This document shows, piece by piece, positions 5,341-26,222 of a stretch of DNA of 35,813 nucleotides. The notes beneath the pieces are model-generated. The model was not told the origin of the DNA. It searched no databases and was given only the letters and a program-made list of their open reading frames with translations. Within the stretch, counting starts at the first letter, position 1. Each line of letters opens with the position of its first letter. Origin of the DNA: Solidesulfovibrio aerotolerans (GTDB lineage: Bacteria; Desulfobacterota; Desulfovibrionia; Desulfovibrionales; Desulfovibrionaceae); contig NZ_WVUD01000038.1 of assembly GCF_009856865.1 (NCBI RefSeq), positions 1 to 35,813 of the forward strand, written 5' to 3'. Made by a program: the position numbers and the translations under genes.

Positions 5341-6185
5341 GGCACCGTCAACTTGTTTGGGCCGGTTTGCGCATAGGGTGCCGAAACGTGTATGGTAGGG
5401 CATCTTGGGATCACGCAGCCAGGCGAGCGCCGGCGACTTCGGCCCAGGTCTCGAAGGCTTGGGCTCGGGCGGTTCGGTAGTCGGCGACGGAGCGGAGGTC
5501 TCGGCGAAGGTTGAAGAGGTTGGCGATCGGGTCGTGGATGGAAAGAAATCGTTGGACTTGGCGAGGCGACTTGAAGCGTTTCATCTGCCGTTCTCGTCGC
5601 CTCGTCGGCTGGTGGGAGTTCTCGGCTCGATTGTTGAGACCCTTGTGCTGACGATGTTCGACGCCAGGCATAGTCTCGCGCTTGGCGGCGGCGTAGCTTT
5701 TAAGCTTGTCGGTCACCATTACTCTTGGCTCCACACCCTGCCTCTTCAGCAGCTTTCGCAGCAGCCGCTTGGCCGCCTTCGCATCCCGCCGGCTCTGGAC
5801 CAGCTCGTCAAGGACGAAGCCATCCTTGTCCACAGCCCGCCAGAGATACTGGCGCTTGCCGCCGATGGCCAGGACGACCTCATCCAGGTGCCATTGGTCG
5901 CCCCGGCGCGGCGCCCGTCGGCGCAGGCTGTTGGCGATATCGCGACCGAATTTCAGCCCCCACTGCCGGACCGTTTCATAGCTGACCGTGATACCCCGTG
6001 CCGCCAGCATTTCCTCAACCATTCGCAGACTCAGCGGAAAGCGGAAGTACAGCCATACGGCGGTCGAAATGACCTCGGCGGGGTAGCGATAACCGGCAAA
6101 GTGAGGATTAGGGGGCGTCGACATGCTGCTCAATACCCGGAAGAGACGTTTTCAGCAACCTCTCCACCGACAAGTTGACGGTACC
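5341..6185 (-). mobile_element. IS6-family insertion sequence, copy C (intact)
   Basis: The ends GGCACCGTCAACTTGT (5341) and its complement with a GGTACC tip (ending 6185) enclose one intact transposase on the minus strand, 845 bp in all. It is nearly identical to copy E including the outer 70 bases. The flanks ctattggt and tgtccaag do not match. The 126 bp between the acyltransferase stop and this element show nothing recognisable. Confidence 0.92.
5411..6133 (-). CDS. IS6-family DDE transposase (copy C, intact)
   Basis: A 240-residue protein, the normal length for IS6/IS240-type transposases, starting at a TTG conserved in all copies. Domains in order: HTH-like N-terminus (about 20-60), then an RNase-H-like catalytic core with Asp84 (WHLDEV), WRAVDKDG, Asp142 (VTDKL) and Glu171 (NNRAENSH). 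An Arg-rich stretch (TRRRERQ) and IHDPIANLF follow. It would catalyse replicative transposition through cointegrates. This is the reference copy for judging the damaged ones. Confidence 0.92.
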   Translation of the reverse strand: MSSMSTPPNPHFAGYRYPAEVISTAVWLYFRFPLSLRMVEEMLAARGITVSYETVRQWGLKFGRDIANSLRRRAPRRGDQWHLDEVVLAIGGKRQYLWRAVDKDGFVLDELVQSRRDAKAAKRLLRKLLKRQGVEPRVMVTDKLKSYAAAKRETMPGVEHRQHKGLNNRAENSHQPTRRRERQMKRFKSPRQVQRFLSIHDPIANLFNLRRDLRSVADYRTARAQAFETWAEVAGARLAA

Positions 6186-6258
6186 TGTCCAAGACCGCAT
6201 CCGCCAGGGTCGGGTCTTGAAACCGCCCGTGCCATTCCGCCACCGGGAACTGAGTCGC
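6186..6258 (-). pseudogene. IS21-type IstB helper protein remnant
   Basis: On the minus strand the segment reads TQFPVAEWHGRF then QDPTLADAVLD. This is the characteristic C-terminal portion of IstB-like ATPases of IS21 elements (consensus roughly TSQLPVxxWHxxxxDPTLADAILDR). About 24 codons remain, cut by IS copy C on one side. No IstA or Walker motif is present nearby. Confidence 0.6.
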
Positions 6259-12871: not shown

Positions 12872-13715
12872 GGCACCGTCAACTTGTTTGGGCCGGTTTG
12901 CGCATAGGGTGCCGAAACGTGTATGGTAGGGCATCTTGGGATCACGCAGCCAGGCGAGCGCCGGCGACTTCGGCCCAGGTCTCGAAGGCTTGGGCTCGGG
13001 CGGTTCGGTAGTCGGCGACGGAGCGGAGGTCTCGGCGAAGGTTGAAGAGGTTGGCGATCGGGTCGTGGATGGAAAGAAATCGTTGGACTTGGCGAGCCGA
13101 CTTGAAGCGTTTCATCTGCCGTTCTCGTCGCCTCGTCGGCTGGTGGGAGTTCTCGGCTCGATTGTTGAGACCCTTGTGCTGACGATGTTCGACGCCAGGC
13201 ATAGTCTCGCGCTTGGCGGCGGCGTAGCTTTTAAGCTTGTCGGTCACCATTACTCTTGGCTCCACACCCTGCCTCTTCAGCAGCTTTCGCAGCAGCCGCT
13301 TGGCCGCCTTCGCATCCCGCCGGCTCTGGACCAGCACGTCAAGGACGAAGCCATCCTTATCCACAGCCCGCCAGAGATAATGGCGCTTGCCGCCGATGGC
13401 CAAGACGACCTCATCAAGGTGCCATTGGTCGCCCCGGCGCGGCGCCCGTCGGCGCAGTCTGTTGGCGATATCGCGACCGAATTTCAGCCCCCACTGCCGG
13501 ACCGTTTCATAGCTGACCGTGATACCCCGTGCAGCCAGCATTTCCTCAACCATTCGCAGACTCAGCGGAAAGCGGAGTACAGCCATACGGCGGTCGAAAT
13601 GACCTCGGCGGGGTAGCGATAACCGGCAAAGTGAGGATTAGGGGGCGTCGACATGCTGCTCAATACCCGGAAGAGACGTTTTCAGCAACCTCTCCACCGA
13701 CAAGTTGACGGTACC
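12872..13715 (-). mobile_element. IS6-family insertion sequence, copy E
   Basis: Ends at 12872 and 13715 (844 bp). It is nearly identical to copy C, one base shorter because of a deletion in the transposase. The flanks cgacgagg and cgttgaac do not match, and different genes lie on each side. Confidence 0.92.
12942..13663 (-). pseudogene. IS6-family transposase with one-base frameshift (copy E)
   Basis: The conserved TTG start (13663) and about the first 28 codons are in one frame, and the remainder from RFPLSLRM onward is in another. The cause is one missing A near 13578 (gcggagtac where copy C has gcggaagtac). The catalytic residues are all downstream of the shift, so a late internal start would lack the N-terminal domain. 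Otherwise almost identical to copy C, so the lesion is recent, or a sequencing error. Confidence 0.85.
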
Positions 13716-13716
13716 C

Positions 13717-13824
13717 GTTGAACGATACAATGACCAGTGGCTCGTGGAGAAAAATGGCTTCAAAAGCCCACGCCAAGCTCGACGTGATTGGCAGGCTGCC
13801 GGCAAAATGCTAACGGCGGCTTAA
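13717..13824 (+). pseudogene. IS3-family transposase OrfB, C-terminal remnant
   Basis: It reads VERYNDQWLVEKNGF then KSPRQARRDW, ending AAGKMLTAA and TAA at 13822-13824. The RYNxxWLxEKxGxxxPxxAR pattern is the usual C-terminal end of IS3-type integrase-core transposases. IS copy E has removed everything upstream. Confidence 0.62.
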
Positions 13825-17386: not shown

Positions 17387-18183
17387 TGTATGGTAGGGCA
17401 TCTTGGGATCACGCAGCCAGGCGAGCGCCGGCGACTTCGGCCCAGGTATCGAAGGCTTGGGCTCGGACGGTTCGGTAGTCGGCGACGGAGCGGTGGTCTC
17501 GGCGAAGGTGGAAGAGGTTGGCGATCGGGTCGTGGATGGAGAGAAATAGTTGGACTTGGCGAGCCGACTTGAAGCGTTTCATCTGCCGTTCTCGTCGCCT
17601 CGTCGGCTGGTGAGAGTTCTCGGCTCGATTGTTGAGACCCTTGTGCTGACGATGTTCGACGCCGGGCATGGTTTCGCGCTTGGCGGCGGCGTAGCTTTTA
17701 AGCTTGTCGGTCACCAGCACCCGTGGCTCCACACCCAGCCTCTTGAGCAGCTTTCGCAGCAGCCGCTTGGCCGCCTTCGCATCCCGCCGGCTCTGGACCA
17801 GCGCGTCAAGGACGAAGCCATCCTTGTCCACAGCCCGCCAGAGAGAGTGGCGCTTGCCGCCGATGGCCAGGACGACCTCATCCAGGTGCCATTTGTCGCC
17901 CCGGCGCGGTGCCCGTCGGCGCAGGGTGTTGGCGATATCGCGGCCGAATTTCAGCCCCCACTGCCGGACCGTCTCATAGCTGACCGTGATACCCCGTGCC
18001 GCCAGCATTTCCTCAACCATTCGCAGACTCAGCGGAAAGCGGAAGTACAGCCAGACAGCGGTCGAAATGACCTCGGCGGGGTAGCGATAACCGGCAAAAC
18101 GGGGATTAGGGTGCGTCGACATGCGGCTCAATACCCGGATGCGACGTTTCAAGCAACCTCTCGGCCGACAAGTTGACGGTGCC
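17387..18183 (-). mobile_element. IS6-family insertion sequence, copy F (one end missing)
   Basis: Homology starts at about 17387 inside the transposase-distal region, so roughly the outer 45 bases including the terminal repeat are missing there. The other end is complete (GACGGTGCC finishing at 18183). The transposase is intact, but the element cannot transpose by itself with one end. Confidence 0.88.
17409..18131 (-). CDS. IS6-family DDE transposase (copy F, intact)
   Basis: 240 residues from the conserved TTG start (an in-frame ATG lies 21 bases further upstream). The full basic loop RRRAPRRGDKWHLDEV, WRAVDKDG, VTDKL and RAENSH are all present. It could act in trans on the other copies, since the ends are near-identical. 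Confidence 0.88.
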   Translation of the reverse strand: MSRMSTHPNPRFAGYRYPAEVISTAVWLYFRFPLSLRMVEEMLAARGITVSYETVRQWGLKFGRDIANTLRRRAPRRGDKWHLDEVVLAIGGKRHSLWRAVDKDGFVLDALVQSRRDAKAAKRLLRKLLKRLGVEPRVLVTDKLKSYAAAKRETMPGVEHRQHKGLNNRAENSHQPTRRRERQMKRFKSARQVQLFLSIHDPIANLFHLRRDHRSVADYRTVRAQAFDTWAEVAGARLAA

Positions 18184-21996: not shown

Positions 21997-22841
21997 GGCA
22001 CCGTCAACTTGTTTGGGCCGGTTTGCACATAGGGCACCGCAATGTGTCTGGCTGTGCATGCCAGGATCACGCAGCCAAGCGAGCGCCGGCGACTTTGGCC
22101 CAGGTTTCGAAGGCTTGGGCCCGGGCGGTTCGGTAGTCGGCGACAGGTCGGTGGTCTCGACGAAGGTGGAAGAGGTTGGCGATCGGGTCGTGGATGGAGA
22201 GAAATAGTTGGACTTGGCGAGCCGACTTGAAGCGTTTCATCTGCCGTCCTCGTCGCCTCGTCGGCTGGTGAGAGTTCTCGGCTCGATTGTTGAGACCCTT
22301 GTGCTGACGATGTTCGACGCCGGGCATGGTTTCGCGCTTGGCGGCGGCGTAGCTCTTGAGCTTGTCGGTCACCAGCACCCGTGGCTCCACCCCTTGCCTC
22401 TTGAGCAGCTTTCGCAGCAGCCGCTTGGCCGCCTTCGCATCCCGCCGGCTCTGGACCAGCACGTCAAGGACGAAGCCATCCTTGTCTACAGCCCGCCAAA
22501 GATACTGGCGCTTACCGCCGATGGCCAGGACGACCTCATCCAGGAGCCATTTGTCGCCCCGGCGCGGTGCTCGTCGGCGCAGGGTGTTGGCGATATCGCG
22601 GCCGAATTTCAGCCCCCACTGCCGGACCGTCTCATAGCTGACCGTGATACCCCGTGCCGTCAGCATTTCCTCAACCATTCGCAGGCTCAGCGGAAAGCGG
22701 AAGTACAGCCACACGGCAGTCGAAATGACTTCGGCAGGGTAGCGATAGCCGGCAAAGTGAGGATTAGGGTGCGTCGACATGCGGCTCAATACCCGGACGC
22801 GACGTTTCAAGCAACCTCTCGGCCGACAAGTTGACGGTACC
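21997..22841 (-). mobile_element. IS6-family insertion sequence, copy H (intact)
   Basis: 845 bp between GGCACCGTCAACTTGT at 21997 and the GGTACC-tipped end at 22841. It stands 100 bp upstream of the membrane protein start and 9 bp downstream of the stop of the winged-helix gene. The flanks gctgcggc and agcgccgc differ. Confidence 0.9.
22067..22789 (-). CDS. IS6-family DDE transposase (copy H, intact)
   Basis: 240 residues from the conserved TTG. A longer frame continues upstream through the IS end without meaning. All catalytic segments are intact (LLDEV, VTDKL, RAENSH). Tryptophan 81 of the other copies is replaced (KWLLDEV), and QPTRRRGRQ differs by one residue. Confidence 0.88.
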   Translation of the reverse strand: MSRMSTHPNPHFAGYRYPAEVISTAVWLYFRFPLSLRMVEEMLTARGITVSYETVRQWGLKFGRDIANTLRRRAPRRGDKWLLDEVVLAIGGKRQYLWRAVDKDGFVLDVLVQSRRDAKAAKRLLRKLLKRQGVEPRVLVTDKLKSYAAAKRETMPGVEHRQHKGLNNRAENSHQPTRRRGRQMKRFKSARQVQLFLSIHDPIANLFHLRRDHRPVADYRTARAQAFETWAKVAGARLAA

Positions 22842-22850
22842 AGCGCCGCC

Positions 22851-24182
22851 TCAGTCAGGCTCCCCGATCTTGGCCCACACGTTACGCAACCACGTTTCCT
22901 CCGGCCCTCTCCGTCCCTCCAGGGCCTTTTCCCGTGCATCCCGGGTCAACCCTCCAACCCAGGCCCGAAAACGTTCCTGCCGCGCTTTTTCGCGGGCTCT
23001 CGCCAGCGCCCACTCCATTTCCTCGGTGCGGATTTTAGCGTCGATCTCTGCCTGCTCCTCGGCGCTAAGGTACCCGGAAGGACGCCGGTAACTGCCCAGC
23101 CCGGCCAAGGAACGAAACACCCAGGCGCACGGATCGGCCACAGGCTGGCCCGTCTTGTCCAGCATCTTCCCCTCGGCCAGTTCCCATTCGGCGTAATCAA
23201 GCCCTTGCACGACCCGTTCCGGACTTTTACCGCGTTCCGCCAGGGCGGCGTAAATCTGTTCGAGTTGCTCAAGTCCGAACCCGGCACGGGAGAGCGTGGG
23301 CCATGCGGTTTGCAGCGTCTCAAAAGAGATAGATAGATTCTTTCTATCTATCTTAAGAGGGGCGTTTGCTCTGTTGAATGCGACAGTTTGATTCAACTGT
23401 TGGAGTTGTCTGTTTAGCTTGTCGATTTGGTTGGTATGCTTTTCTTGTGTGTTTGATTTGTCTGCGTTGTTACGCCCCCAGGTCGCAGCCAGAGAGTCGG
23501 TTGGCGCCAGGGAAAGCGCGCGGTTGCGGCCTGCTCCCCATTGTTGTTTTTCCAACCAGCCGGCGGCGACGAACTTGTTGATGATGGTGCGCGCCGTGCC
23601 CATGGGAACGTCGGTTTCCGCAGCAATGACGGCGTATGTGGTCACTACTGGGCCTGTTTCCAGGAAGTGGGCGGCCAGGGTTTTCTGGGCGGCCGTGGCC
23701 AGGGGAAGGCGCTGCGGCAACCGCATGGCCGGGTGGGTTTGTCTGTCCGAATTGTCTGTTTTTTTAGTCTGTTTTATTTGTCTGTTTATTTTGAATGTTT
23801 TGTTTTCTTGTTCGCCTTCTCTGAGCGATTTGTCTGTTCTTTTTTTGTGTTCTTTTTTTGTGCTCGGCTCGTCTGTTTGTCTGTGTTCTTTGTCTTCTTG
23901 CTTTGTCTGTTCGACAGTTGAGTTCGTCTGTTGGATTTTTCTGATTGACTCAACTGTCGAGTTTGTCTGTTCCTCTTGTCTGTTTTTTTTGTCTGTTTTT
24001 TTTGTCTGATCGTTTTGTCTGTGCTGTTCGTCTGCTTTGTTCGTCTGCTCGCGTTTGAGGGGAAGGGGCTGGACGATGGCATCCTTGAGACACACCTCCG
24101 GGGCGGCTGGCTGCGTCGGCGATTGGCTGCCCAGGCGGCTTTGGGCGGCCTTGCGCAGGAGTTGGGTCATTGATATGGCCAT
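22851..24182 (-). CDS. Winged-helix protein with internal repeat region, probable replication initiator
   Basis: 443 residues; ATG at 24182 with GGAG upstream. Order: N-terminal 44 residues; a low-complexity linker (45-150) of 13-residue repeats such as QTKKTDKKNRQEE; a winged helix (160-228, with TYAVIAAETDVPMGTARTII as the HTH); a second repeat linker (238-272); and a helical C-terminal domain (284-443) ending in charged helices. It follows parA by 15 bp in one operon. The linkers are encoded by 13-bp DNA repeats, as if the gene contains its own binding sites, like the origin inside phage lambda O or inside RepA_N genes. Replication initiation or centromere binding are both possible. I do not recognise a named family. 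Confidence 0.6.
   Translation of the reverse strand: MAISMTQLLRKAAQSRLGSQSPTQPAAPEVCLKDAIVQPLPLKREQTNKADEQHRQNDQTKKTDKKNRQEEQTNSTVESIRKIQQTNSTVEQTKQEDKEHRQTDEPSTKKEHKKRTDKSLREGEQENKTFKINRQIKQTKKTDNSDRQTHPAMRLPQRLPLATAAQKTLAAHFLETGPVVTTYAVIAAETDVPMGTARTIINKFVAAGWLEKQQWGAGRNRALSLAPTDSLAATWGRNNADKSNTQEKHTNQIDKLNRQLQQLNQTVAFNRANAPLKIDRKNLSISFETLQTAWPTLSRAGFGLEQLEQIYAALAERGKSPERVVQGLDYAEWELAEGKMLDKTGQPVADPCAWVFRSLAGLGSYRRPSGYLSAEEQAEIDAKIRTEEMEWALARAREKARQERFRAWVGGLTRDAREKALEGRRGPEETWLRNVWAKIGEPD
23327..23353. repeat. Perfect 11-bp palindrome next to the iteron cluster
   Basis: AGATAGATAGA, loop TTCTT, TCTATCTATCT. It is AT-rich and lies 16 bases from the smaller array of 13-bp repeats inside the winged-helix gene. 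It could be a binding site, a melting region or a hairpin. Confidence 0.75.
23369..23472. repeat. Iteron-like array 2: about eight 13-bp repeats
   Basis: GTCTG-like pentamers occur at 23408 (gtctg), 23421 (gtcga), 23434 (gtatg), 23447 (gtgtg) and 23460 (gtctg), each exactly 13 bases apart. Weaker members in the same register lie at 23369 and 23395. It encodes the second linker of the protein (residues about 238-272), just after the winged helix. Confidence 0.65.
23741..24055. repeat. Iteron-like array 1: up to about 20 direct 13-bp repeats
   Basis: GTCTG occurs at 23965, 23978, 23991, 24004, 24017, 24030 and 24043, seven times at exactly 13-bp pitch; the unit is roughly GTCTGTTYTTTTT. Other members in one common register are at 23741, 23754, 23767, 23780, 23832, 23871 and 23936, with degenerate units between. 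A short offset set is at 23879, 23892 and 23905. The whole array lies in the first third of the winged-helix gene. Confidence 0.8.
23911..23960. repeat. 13-bp inverted repeat inside array 1
   Basis: TCGACAGTTGAGT (23911-23923) and ACTCAACTGTCGA (23948-23960) are exact reverse complements separated by 24 bases. Both encode the peptide NSTVE on the minus strand, using different codons. Confidence 0.75.
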
Positions 24183-24197
24183 GGCCTGCTCCGATGC

Positions 24198-24983
24198 TTA
24201 CTGCGACAGAATTTGCAACAGTTCCGTGGCCAAGGTGCGGTAGGCCTGGGCACCGGGACTCTTCGACGCGTGTCGCAAAACGGTCTTGCTCAGCATTTCA
24301 GATTGCTGGATGTCGGTATTGACCGGAATGATGGTGGAAAAGACCTTGCCTGGGTAAGTTTGCTGGATCTGTTCGATGGTCACTTTGCTGACAGCGGTGC
24401 GCCGGTCGGCTTTGTTGATGAGCAGGCGCAAAAAGCGGCCCGAGGGGTGGTCTGGATCAGCCTGGGCTATGCCGGCGATGGTTTCGATGGTGCGGTCCAG
24501 GCCGTCCATGGCGTAGCGGCTTCCGGCTTCGACGGGCACGAGGATGAAATCCGAAGCGATCATGGCCTGAATGGAAAAAAGGCCCAGGTTCGGCGGGCAG
24601 TCGATAAGGGTGAAATCAAAGGTTTTGACGGCGTGTTCGCGCAAACGGTCGCGCAGCATGTACCAACCGTAGTCGTCGCGTCGCGCCAGGGCTGGCTCCA
24701 GGGCGGCGCTGTCGGTTTTGTTGGGCAACACGTGCAAGCGTTCGTAATCCGGGGCCGGCGTAAGACAGGCTTCCGCCGTGACGCCGTCGCCGTCAAGGAG
24801 TTCCAGCAGGCTGTTGCCGCCCCAGGGGCTGCCGAGAAAGGTGCTGGTGAGATTGCATTGGCTGTCGGCGTCGACGATGAGGACGCGCTTTTTCCGGGCG
24901 GAAAGGGCGTGGGCCAGATTGGCCGTGGTGGTGGATTTGCCCACTCCCCCCTTGTTATTGGACACGGTGAGTATAATTCCCAT
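24198..24983 (-). CDS. parA: ParA-family partition ATPase
   Basis: 261 residues from the ATG at 24983 (GGGAGAG upstream; a TTG lies one codon earlier). It has the deviant Walker A motif of MinD/ParA proteins, KGGVGKSTT (11-19), the Walker A-prime region LIVDADSQCNLT (about 35-46) and Walker B FTLIDCPPNLG. It has no N-terminal HTH, so it is the small type. It would form an ATP-dependent gradient on the nucleoid to segregate a plasmid or integrative element. No ParB follows; the next gene in the operon is the winged-helix repeat protein, which may serve as the centromere-binding partner. Confidence 0.88.
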   Translation of the reverse strand: MGIILTVSNNKGGVGKSTTTANLAHALSARKKRVLIVDADSQCNLTSTFLGSPWGGNSLLELLDGDGVTAEACLTPAPDYERLHVLPNKTDSAALEPALARRDDYGWYMLRDRLREHAVKTFDFTLIDCPPNLGLFSIQAMIASDFILVPVEAGSRYAMDGLDRTIETIAGIAQADPDHPSGRFLRLLINKADRRTAVSKVTIEQIQQTYPGKVFSTIIPVNTDIQQSEMLSKTVLRHASKSPGAQAYRTLATELLQILSQ

Positions 24984-25208
24984 CAACTTACTCTCCCTGT
25001 AGATGTCTGCTGCACGCCGTGATTAGCACCGGGAATCGAGGATCAGCAAGGTTTTTTTAGGGGTATTTGGTCTGTTGATTTGGAATGACATGCTCTACGC
25101 ACAGGGCCTCAAGTAAGTTCGTTTTTCCGCCGACAAAGAGCCGCCGCAGGTCCCTTTATGCCGTCGGCATCTCCTCAACCATGCGCAGACGCGGCAGAAA
25201 GGTATGAC

Positions 25209-25391: not shown

Positions 25392-26222
25392 GGCACCGTC
25401 AACTTGTCGGTCGTGGTGGTTGCTGGAAATGTCTGGTCCGGTTATTGAGTAGCATGTCGACGCACCCTAATTCCCACTTTGCCGGCTATCGCTACCCCGT
25501 CGAGGTCGTTTCGACCGCCGTGTGGCTTTACTTCCGCTTTCCGCTGCGTCTGCCAATGGTTGAGGAAATGCTGGCGGCACGGGGGGGCACGGTTAGCTAT
25601 GAGACAGTCTGGCAGTGGGGGTTAAAGTTTGGCCGTGATATCGCTAATAGCCTGCGCCGGGGCGACAAGCGGTACCTGGATGAGGTCATCCTGACCATCG
25701 GCGGTAAGCGCCACTCTCTCTGGCGGGCTGTGGACAAGGATGGCTTCGTCCTTGACGTGCGGGTTCAAAGCCGGCGGGATGTAAAGGCGGCCAAGCGGCT
25801 GCTGCGAAAGCTGCTCAAGAGGCAGGGAGTGGAGCCAAGGGTAATGGTGACCGACAAGCTCAAGAGCTACGCCGCCGCCAAGTGCGAGACCATGCCGGGC
25901 GTCGAACATCGCCAGCGCAAGGGTCTCAACAACCGAGCTGAGAATTCCCACCCGCCGACGAGGCGACGAGAACGGCAAATGAAATGTTTTAAGTCGGCTC
26001 GCTTAGTTCAACGGTTTCTTTCCTTCCACGACCCGATTGCCAACCTCTTCCACCTTCGCCGAGACCACCGCCCCGTCGCCGACTACCGGACCGCCCGAGC
26101 CCAGGCCTTCGAAACCTGGGCGGAAATCGCCGGCGCTCGCCTCGCAGCGTGGTCCTGGCATGCCCAGCCATACACATTTCGGCAGCCTACGTGCAAACCG
26201 GCCCAAACAAGTTGACGGTACC
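25392..26222 (+). mobile_element. IS6-family insertion sequence, copy I (most diverged)
   Basis: 831 bp from GGCACCGTCAACTTGT (25392) to the GGTACC-tipped end at 26222, plus orientation. It is the most diverged of the full-length copies. It ends 11 bases before the phosphatase gene, so any original promoter of the downstream operon has been displaced. Confidence 0.88.
25445..26215 (+). CDS. IS6-family transposase with read-through C-terminus (copy I)
   Basis: 256 residues instead of about 235-240. The normal stop TGA is replaced by TGG (gcagcgtggtcc), so translation continues about 20 codons into the terminal region and stops inside the end repeat. The basic loop is short as in copy D (SLRRGDKRYLDEV). 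LDEV, VTDKL and RAENSH are kept, but several conserved positions differ (VWQWG, RLPMVEE, MKCFKSARL). Activity is doubtful. Confidence 0.8.
   Translation: MSSMSTHPNSHFAGYRYPVEVVSTAVWLYFRFPLRLPMVEEMLAARGGTVSYETVWQWGLKFGRDIANSLRRGDKRYLDEVILTIGGKRHSLWRAVDKDGFVLDVRVQSRRDVKAAKRLLRKLLKRQGVEPRVMVTDKLKSYAAAKCETMPGVEHRQRKGLNNRAENSHPPTRRRERQMKCFKSARLVQRFLSFHDPIANLFHLRRDHRPVADYRTARAQAFETWAEIAGARLAAWSWHAQPYTFRQPTCKPAQTS

Follow-up and report, generated by a model that had tools for sequence, protein, structure and literature searches.

A parA gene and the repeat-bearing gene behind it, here called the array gene, probably form a self-contained plasmid maintenance module, in which the encoded protein binds its own gene and this gene holds the replication origin and probably a ParA-dependent centromere as well. 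We put the probability of this reading at roughly two in three. The arrays of short repeats inside the gene are kept as DNA. ParA, the winged helix of the encoded protein, and the arrays vary jointly while the C-terminal domain stays constant, with the change located at an inverted repeat. In several plasmids, strand bias reverses at or close to the array gene. Comparison of these sequences suggests a unit that plasmids of sulfate-reducing bacteria and related organisms can swap and that serves both their copying and their sorting.

In the proposed mechanism, the winged helix would bind 13-bp sites within its own coding sequence and the repeated DNA would act as the iterons of a plasmid replication origin, with the inverted repeat as a putative part of the strand-opening element beside them. 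The C-terminal domain would recruit the replication machinery. The same protein-DNA complex probably doubles as the centromere for ParA, since no gene lies between parA and the array gene and an insertion sequence follows in the window, by which we mean the whole stretch of 35,813 nucleotides that was analyzed.

Organization of the parA-array gene locus

On the minus strand of the window, parA (24198..24986) encodes a ParA-family ATPase of 262 amino acids (Pfam AAA_31, E 3.1e-36), which is the ParABS feature present at the locus and is 95% identical to the ParA adjoining L034, the homologue on pDCAR1. The array gene (22851..24182, minus strand; 443 amino acids by translation) begins after a gap of 15 bp, with parA upstream, and its product is 61% identical across its length to the proteins of pDCAR1 and pDMC1. 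The pair is flanked by two IS6-family copies, one of which ends about 10 bp past the array gene stop codon; the 35.8-kb contig has six similar copies of this family (161-984, 5341-6188, 12872-13718, 17387-18183, 22064-22841, and 25445-26215).

The array gene codes, in order, for a short N-terminal segment, a first array-coded linker, a winged helix, a second array-coded linker, and a C-terminal domain. An AlphaFold model was confident for two parts only, the winged helix (residues ~159-240) and a helical C-terminal domain (~277-443); confidence was very low elsewhere, and the arrays are encoded in these low-confidence stretches. G+C content is 39% in the array DNA and 64-65% in the DNA coding for the winged helix and the C-terminal domain.

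The window protein had no family match at E ≤ 0.01 in Pfam or NCBIfam. At E ≤ 1 in Pfam it matched HTH_IclR and PhageMin_Tail only, and RepA_N (PF06970), ParB-family, and Rep_3 (PF01051) domains were absent at that threshold. For the AlphaFold-confident winged helix-turn-helix domain (amino acids 158-228; 23499..23711, minus strand), PHROGs "O-like" profiles, which represent phage replication initiators, gave weak matches in 5 of 10 relatives (E 0.0015-0.32) and none in the window protein. The conserved C-terminal domain (amino acids 284-443; 22854..23333, minus strand) is a candidate for recruiting the replisome. It matches no known family and no known replication domain, and among the PDB entries searched by fold and by sequence it had no match, the best E values being 1.9 with Foldseek and 0.76 by sequence.

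Comparison of N-termini by eye makes the N-terminal segment (amino acids 1-44; 24051..24182, minus strand) a candidate ParA contact. A conserved contact motif looked plausible by eye, but a simple pattern for it matched members with and without ParA alike and missed the window protein, and it is therefore not counted as evidence.

The arrays are maintained as DNA

Array 1 (23739..24047, minus strand) is made up of CAGACAA-type sites spaced by 13 bp and spread over all three reading frames. Array 2 (23406..23464, minus strand) has three CAGACAA-type sites at multiples of 13 bp and is weaker than array 1; it sits past the winged-helix domain, and arrays thus lie on both sides of the winged helix. 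An earlier note on this DNA had described a GTCTG recurrence at 13-bp pitch, and the recurrence is found exactly where it was placed, at 23741, 23754, 23767, and 23780, with seven more copies in 13-bp steps from 23965 to 24043. The range given there, 23741..24055, does contain an array but was incomplete, since array 1 spans 23739-24047 and array 2 was missed.

On the plus strand, the array gene contains 18 GTCTG and 0 CAGAC, while the rest of the window contains 48 and 36. These 18 copies share a single orientation and are distributed 6/6/6 over the codon frames, which bears out the claim that the 13-bp unit is read through all three frames. They fall into four registers modulo 13 (8, 6, 2, and 2 copies), a sign of register slippage in the array. 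Allowing up to one mismatch, TTGTCTG occurs at 24 sites in the gene, and 14 pairs of these are exactly 13 bp apart; in 500 codon-block shuffles the means were 8.1 sites and 0.09 pairs, and the maxima 17 and 2. Same-letter runs at lag 13 numbered 136 versus 14 expected from codon shuffling (z 13.8, 60 shuffles), and the signal also stood out against synonymous-codon shuffling (z 6.8, 60 shuffles). The tandem-repeat check proposed in the earlier note gave a positive result: Tandem Repeats Finder reports 13-bp units in five stretches (23752-23805, 23835-23862, 23876-23910, 23962-24034, and 24025-24049).

Per-codon-position comparison with the pDCAR1 and pDMC1 homologues favors conservation of the repeat as DNA and not as peptide, in agreement with the earlier note. 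The 7-bp core is conserved at 0.72-0.76 at codon positions 1, 2, and 3 (50-53 positions per class), and the spacers at 0.52-0.66 (87-90 positions per class). Since the core is equally conserved at every codon position and the spacers are less so, what is maintained is the DNA. Both of these closest homologues keep a gapless 13-bp grid in array 1, and the opposite pattern, with the peptide kept and the 13-bp period lost, was not seen in them; several of their units are degenerate, leaving 8 pairs at 13 bp in each versus 14 in the window gene. Homologues with other motifs retain the 13-bp period too, and 13 is not a multiple of three.

Two extra GTCTG copies upstream of parA (25005 and 25070) are 65 bp, or 5 x 13, apart, which may be due to chance. 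By eye, a 12-bp inverted repeat, CGACAGTTGAGT / ACTCAACTGTCG, built of degenerate units, lies inside array 1 (23912-23959).

An inverted repeat before the C-terminal domain

Between array 2 and the C-terminal domain lies a perfect inverted repeat, AGATAGATAGA-5-TCTATCTATCT (23327..23353). None of 1000 synonymous recodings with the gene's own codon use reached its stem. A search of 59 genomes located the exact pattern in 7 of them, at 9 distinct places, every one inside a family gene. A stem test on 24 family members, which left out the 15 of 39 that could not be placed by a simple motif, found stems of at least 11 in 8 (p ≤ 0.006) but not in the other 16; one of these 16, L038, has the repeat just beyond the tested stretch, and two unplaced members, L040 and L051, also carry it. 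L034 and L035 show a matched double change that preserves the stem.

Distant members have a repeat of other letters (for example TAGTAGTAGTAG-loop-CTACTACTACTA) in the corresponding region in 9 of 9 tested cases, with L157 left out; their stems are 11-16 long (p_syn ≤ 0.01, 200 trials each). Because the letters vary while position and pairing are kept, the repeat may have a structural or opening role in the DNA or may form an RNA hairpin. We infer that it is a candidate opening element of the origin. In L151-L156, the TAGTAGTAGTAG arms face an A+T-rich core on both strands in a DnaA-trio-like arrangement. The published DnaA-trio 3'-GAT-5' (PMC8287927) fits these arms of the distant group and does not fit the GATA-type arms of the window.

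Distribution of the family and its link to ParA

Of 99 genomes searched with the protein, one of them the window's own, 22 had matches. Eleven plasmid records had matches, all from genera of Desulfovibrionales, and in the plasmid records examined the array genes are mostly annotated as "hypothetical protein". Our literature search, whose coverage of subscription journals was small, found no description of the family. The family set used here comprises 39 ORFs including the window's, obtained from a list of 41 by removing L065 and L066, which are copies of L064. Named plasmid records supplied ten of these ORFs (L034-L043) and genome contigs the remainder; near-duplicates within the set are L036/L055, L034/L035, L042/L043, and L061/L063/L067.

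A strong 13-bp array was present in 10 of the 39 ORFs (z 9.9-32.6; synonymous-shuffle z 4.8-12.4). By our own reading these arrays make up about seven motif groups, one of which is common to the window, L034, and L035. Other members have 12-bp arrays, several with extra lags in 4-bp steps. At lag 12 or 13, z ≥ 5 was reached by 19 of 39 family ORFs, and not by the other 20, versus 2 of 146 control ORFs; the first of those two controls is L065, the family copy removed above, the second is an ORF antisense to the broken L052 gene and probably represents a similar array, and the remaining 144 have z ≤ 3.2. In 30 of 33 members, 7-mer sharing is higher between arrays 1 and 2 of the same gene than between these arrays and the average other gene; in 17 of 33, a set that does not include the window gene, the two arrays are mutual best matches.

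ParA lies directly upstream in 29 of 39 family ORFs, with an overlap of up to 166 bp or a gap of at most 54 bp. The other ten include L051 and L058, at contig ends, and L052, which is broken and has ParA 1.2 kb off. With three unclear members set aside, arrays of z ≥ 5 occur in 18 of 29 members with ParA versus 0 of 7 without (Fisher p 0.008, among members that are not independent). Three relatives without ParA (L053, L054, and L056) adjoin relaxase genes, indicating that the gene is retained without ParA too.

An even sample of 395 genomes from the phylum contained 9 with the C-terminal domain. Eleven stretches from six of these 9 genomes were analyzed, and 10 gave an ORF with the C-terminal domain (L150 is fragmentary at a contig start and L157 is short). 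Among these distant ORFs, a 12-bp array is present in 8 of 10 (lag-12 z 4.8-26), and for 7 of 10 the stretch includes ParA. Genome contigs yielded no match to a single-protein query and 8 loci to an alignment query. On viral contigs, 30 stretches fit a search pattern and none encodes a relative.

Several features of individual members were also noted. L047, L050, L060, L062, L059, and L068 form a subgroup that overlaps parA and shares an N-terminus of the IPPxExFxAFPxLxAFPExAIAFLTG type; array lags in 4-bp steps occur in several of its members, and in L047, L050, and pDCAR1 this type is present together with the first. A further array gene in the genome of L069 (G000:C142) carries another 13-bp motif (GGACAG type), as would be required of two compatible plasmids. 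The contig of L072, a close relative, is binned as a Spirochaetia MAG and is possibly misbinned or transferred. The annotation of pDsulf-L2-2 (L103-L105), from a sulfate reducer in swine waste, includes sul1, tet(C), blaOXA-21, and mercury resistance genes.

Exchange of ParA, winged helix, and arrays

Pairs of members with C-terminal domains 74-87% identical include some whose winged helices are unrelated (14-24%) and whose arrays have a 7-mer sharing of 0.06-0.12, and others with winged helices 77-87% identical and 7-mer sharing of 0.26-0.31. L046, L049, and L069, for instance, have C-terminal domains 81-87% identical, winged helices 14-24% identical, 7-mer sharing of 0.07-0.10, and ParA proteins 40-44% identical. 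Among the ten members compared, ParA identity is 0.85-0.95 where the winged helices are alike, 0.40-0.45 where they are unrelated, and 0.43-0.73 in intermediate pairs (winged helix 0.46-0.49), and ParA thus tracks the winged helix irrespective of the C-terminal domain. As the winged helix is flanked by the arrays, their joint inheritance could stem from physical linkage alone.

In all five swapped pairs, DNA homology restarts within 11 bp of the inverted repeat, and four of the five have an additional short homologous stretch in parA. In the intermediate pair L044/L069, homology begins about 80 bp ahead of the repeat. One genome of the phylum carries five copies, with C-terminal parts 74-97% identical, N-terminal parts 22-41% identical, and, in four of the five, ParA 47-57% identical; in all 10 pairs of these copies, homology starts no more than 13 bp from the repeat. 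Differing arrays in copies that share a cell are what compatible plasmids would be expected to need.

Evidence bearing on a replication origin

The minimum of the cumulative GC skew is commonly used as a marker of replication origins. Since raw minima are biased by the gene's own skewed arrays, a test with the gene masked was used, and relative to the raw minima this loses D. sulfoxidireducens p1 and weakens pDCAR1. The masked minimum lies 18-19 bp from the gene in the related D. vulgaris plasmids pDsulf-L2-1 and pDEVAL01 (175 and 202 kb) and 86 bp from it, with significant amplitude, in pDsulf-L2-2. It is 86 bp away in pDRET01 and 324 bp away in pDMC2, with amplitudes that are not significant. 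Distances are 1.8 kb in D. bizertense, 1.9 kb in D. sulfodismutans p1, and 2 kb in contig G010:C3, and 5.7 kb in pDCAR1 and 6.9 kb in contig G010:C2, each of the latter two with two gene copies. The minimum is far from the gene in pDMC1 (20 kb), which carries one of the two closest relatives, and in D. sulfoxidireducens p1 (27 kb), whose own Rep_3 gene is about 6 kb from the minimum.

For the 11 plasmids or contigs combined, masked minima are nearer to the gene than expected by chance (Fisher p = 0.0026), although p exceeds 0.15 in 6 of the 11 taken singly; over the 8 replicons with significant amplitude, Fisher p is 0.0087. These sums leave out the twins pDsulf-L2-1 and G007:C37, and G010:C2 and G010:C3 were assumed to be circular.

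In a search with a positive control, Rep_3 (PF01051) was found in one of 10 plasmids, D. sulfoxidireducens p1, in a separate gene. A search for RPA in the 10 plasmids gave a single match, below threshold, at one plasmid's Rep_3 gene, and Toprim_3 (PF13362) was absent from all 10, with positive controls. DnaA boxes were rejected as an origin mark: exact boxes (TTATCCACA, which we take to be the consensus) were absent near the 16 loci scanned, and one-mismatch boxes, present within 1.2 kb in 11 of 16 loci, have no fixed place. In addition to ParA and the array gene, pDRET01 (L082) encodes a distinct ParA-ParG partition pair, which would be consistent with an initiator role for the array gene on this plasmid.

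Alternative explanations

The earlier note proposed that the gene encodes an initiator or centromere-binding protein with binding sites in its own gene, and this agrees with the winged-helix fold, the ParA neighbor, the skew minima of several plasmids, and the joint swapping. In an alternative reading, the protein could be a ParB-like adaptor and the arrays an intragenic partition site, with the origin elsewhere on the plasmid. ParA does vary with the winged helix and not with the C-terminal domain, the winged helix resembles AspA of pNOB8 (MarR proteins tie with AspA) and has phage TubR at rank 38 among its viral matches, one plasmid has a separate Rep_3 gene, and the restriction of strong arrays to members with ParA fits a centromere as well or better. 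However, GC-skew minima lie at the gene in several plasmids, 9 of 10 plasmids lack Rep_3 (one initiator family), relatives without ParA persist beside relaxases, and a plain centromere has no obvious need for a conserved C-terminal domain and an inverted repeat. We therefore consider a purely centromeric role unlikely; the skew minima, the rarity of Rep_3, and the ParA-less relatives lead us to rank the origin reading above it, and a joint role is likely. Autoregulation, with the arrays mainly serving as operators that titrate the protein or block its own transcription and as neither origin nor centromere, would agree with the shared orientation of the intragenic sites in the window gene and with the excess of array motifs upstream of parA in 4 of the 21 members with 300 bp to inspect (L045, the second gene of L047, L049, and L060). 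Such an excess is absent in the other 17, so that motif copies before parA were dropped as a general operator, and the skew minima and a number of sites far above what a simple operator needs make this reading very improbable. Least of all do we expect the repeats to be a product of replication slippage in a low-complexity linker, with no function as DNA. The linkers are predicted at very low confidence, like disordered stretches, and 12-bp arrays translate into 4-residue peptide repeats, but the 13-bp unit runs through three frames with its wobble positions equally conserved, the ten 13-bp members keep their signal under synonymous shuffling, and arrays are rare in control ORFs. Codon-frame use and wobble conservation speak against the peptide-repeat reading.

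The preferred reading, a maintenance module whose protein binds its own gene, can be extended to a more specific form that we regard as tentative and somewhat doubtful. One protein would be both initiator and ParA partner, its own coding DNA would be both origin and centromere, and the inverted repeat would be a dedicated exchange point that trades ParA, winged helix, and arrays in one step while the host-fitted C-terminal domain is kept, giving compatible copies that share a cell. If the module is real, it would name a replicon type common to a phylum, array motifs could be used to locate origins and to predict compatibility groups, and a single stretch of DNA would be under simultaneous selection for its protein code, for its binding array, and probably for its origin function. 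With exchange at a fixed inverted repeat, the gain of new incompatibility identities by plasmids would be directly testable.

Comparison with known plasmid and phage systems

The nearest known design is that of the Staphylococcus plasmids pSK41 and pPR9, with intragenic sites in a linker, a separately conserved C-terminal domain, and a natural swap (PMC5703833). The winged helix of the RepA_N initiator of pSK41 binds boxes in its own gene, where the origin encodes the linker (PMC5703833); for the array gene, binding is what we infer. Between pPR9 and pSK41, the DNA-binding part and the origin differ while the C-terminal domains are >97% identical, and mini-replicons of the two are compatible with each other (PMC5703833). 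Unlike pSK41, the array gene lacks a RepA_N domain and has arrays on both sides of the winged helix, with 24 near-consensus sites, and a 12/13-bp pitch in the family, against four boxes in pSK41 (PMC5703833). It also differs in having ParA joined in front and changing along with it, and in the inverted repeat that borders the exchanged part. An origin inside the initiator gene (pSK41, SPP1 gp38, and RepC) and a swap of the pPR9 type are thus already known from the available portions of the sources cited here. What seems to be new is a joined ParA that co-changes, arrays flanking the DNA-binding domain at 12/13-bp pitch, and an inverted repeat at the exchange boundary.

The lambda O origin-binding protein binds direct repeats in its own gene beside an A+T-rich opening element. 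The same holds for gp38/oriL of phage SPP1 in the available portion of PMC6316719, and the array gene would resemble it in this respect; that system belongs to a phage and that portion mentions no ParA partner, and the likeness of the winged helix to phage initiators is a weak profile similarity. In RepABC plasmids, oriV lies near or within a large A+T-rich region of repC, according to the excerpted text of PMC3155836. The likeness there would be that the coding sequence of the initiator contains the origin and that partition genes share its operon, and the difference is that RepABC, in that text, has three genes with a separate RepB (PMC3155836). AspA and TubR are winged-helix proteins that coat centromere DNA, as the proposed array-binding protein would, but in the available portions of PMC5120986 and PMC5016525 their site is upstream of the genes and not intragenic, and AspA acts via a separate ParB and does not associate with ParA. 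In the same portions (PMC5120986, PMC5016525), tubC is described as several direct repeats divided into blocks.
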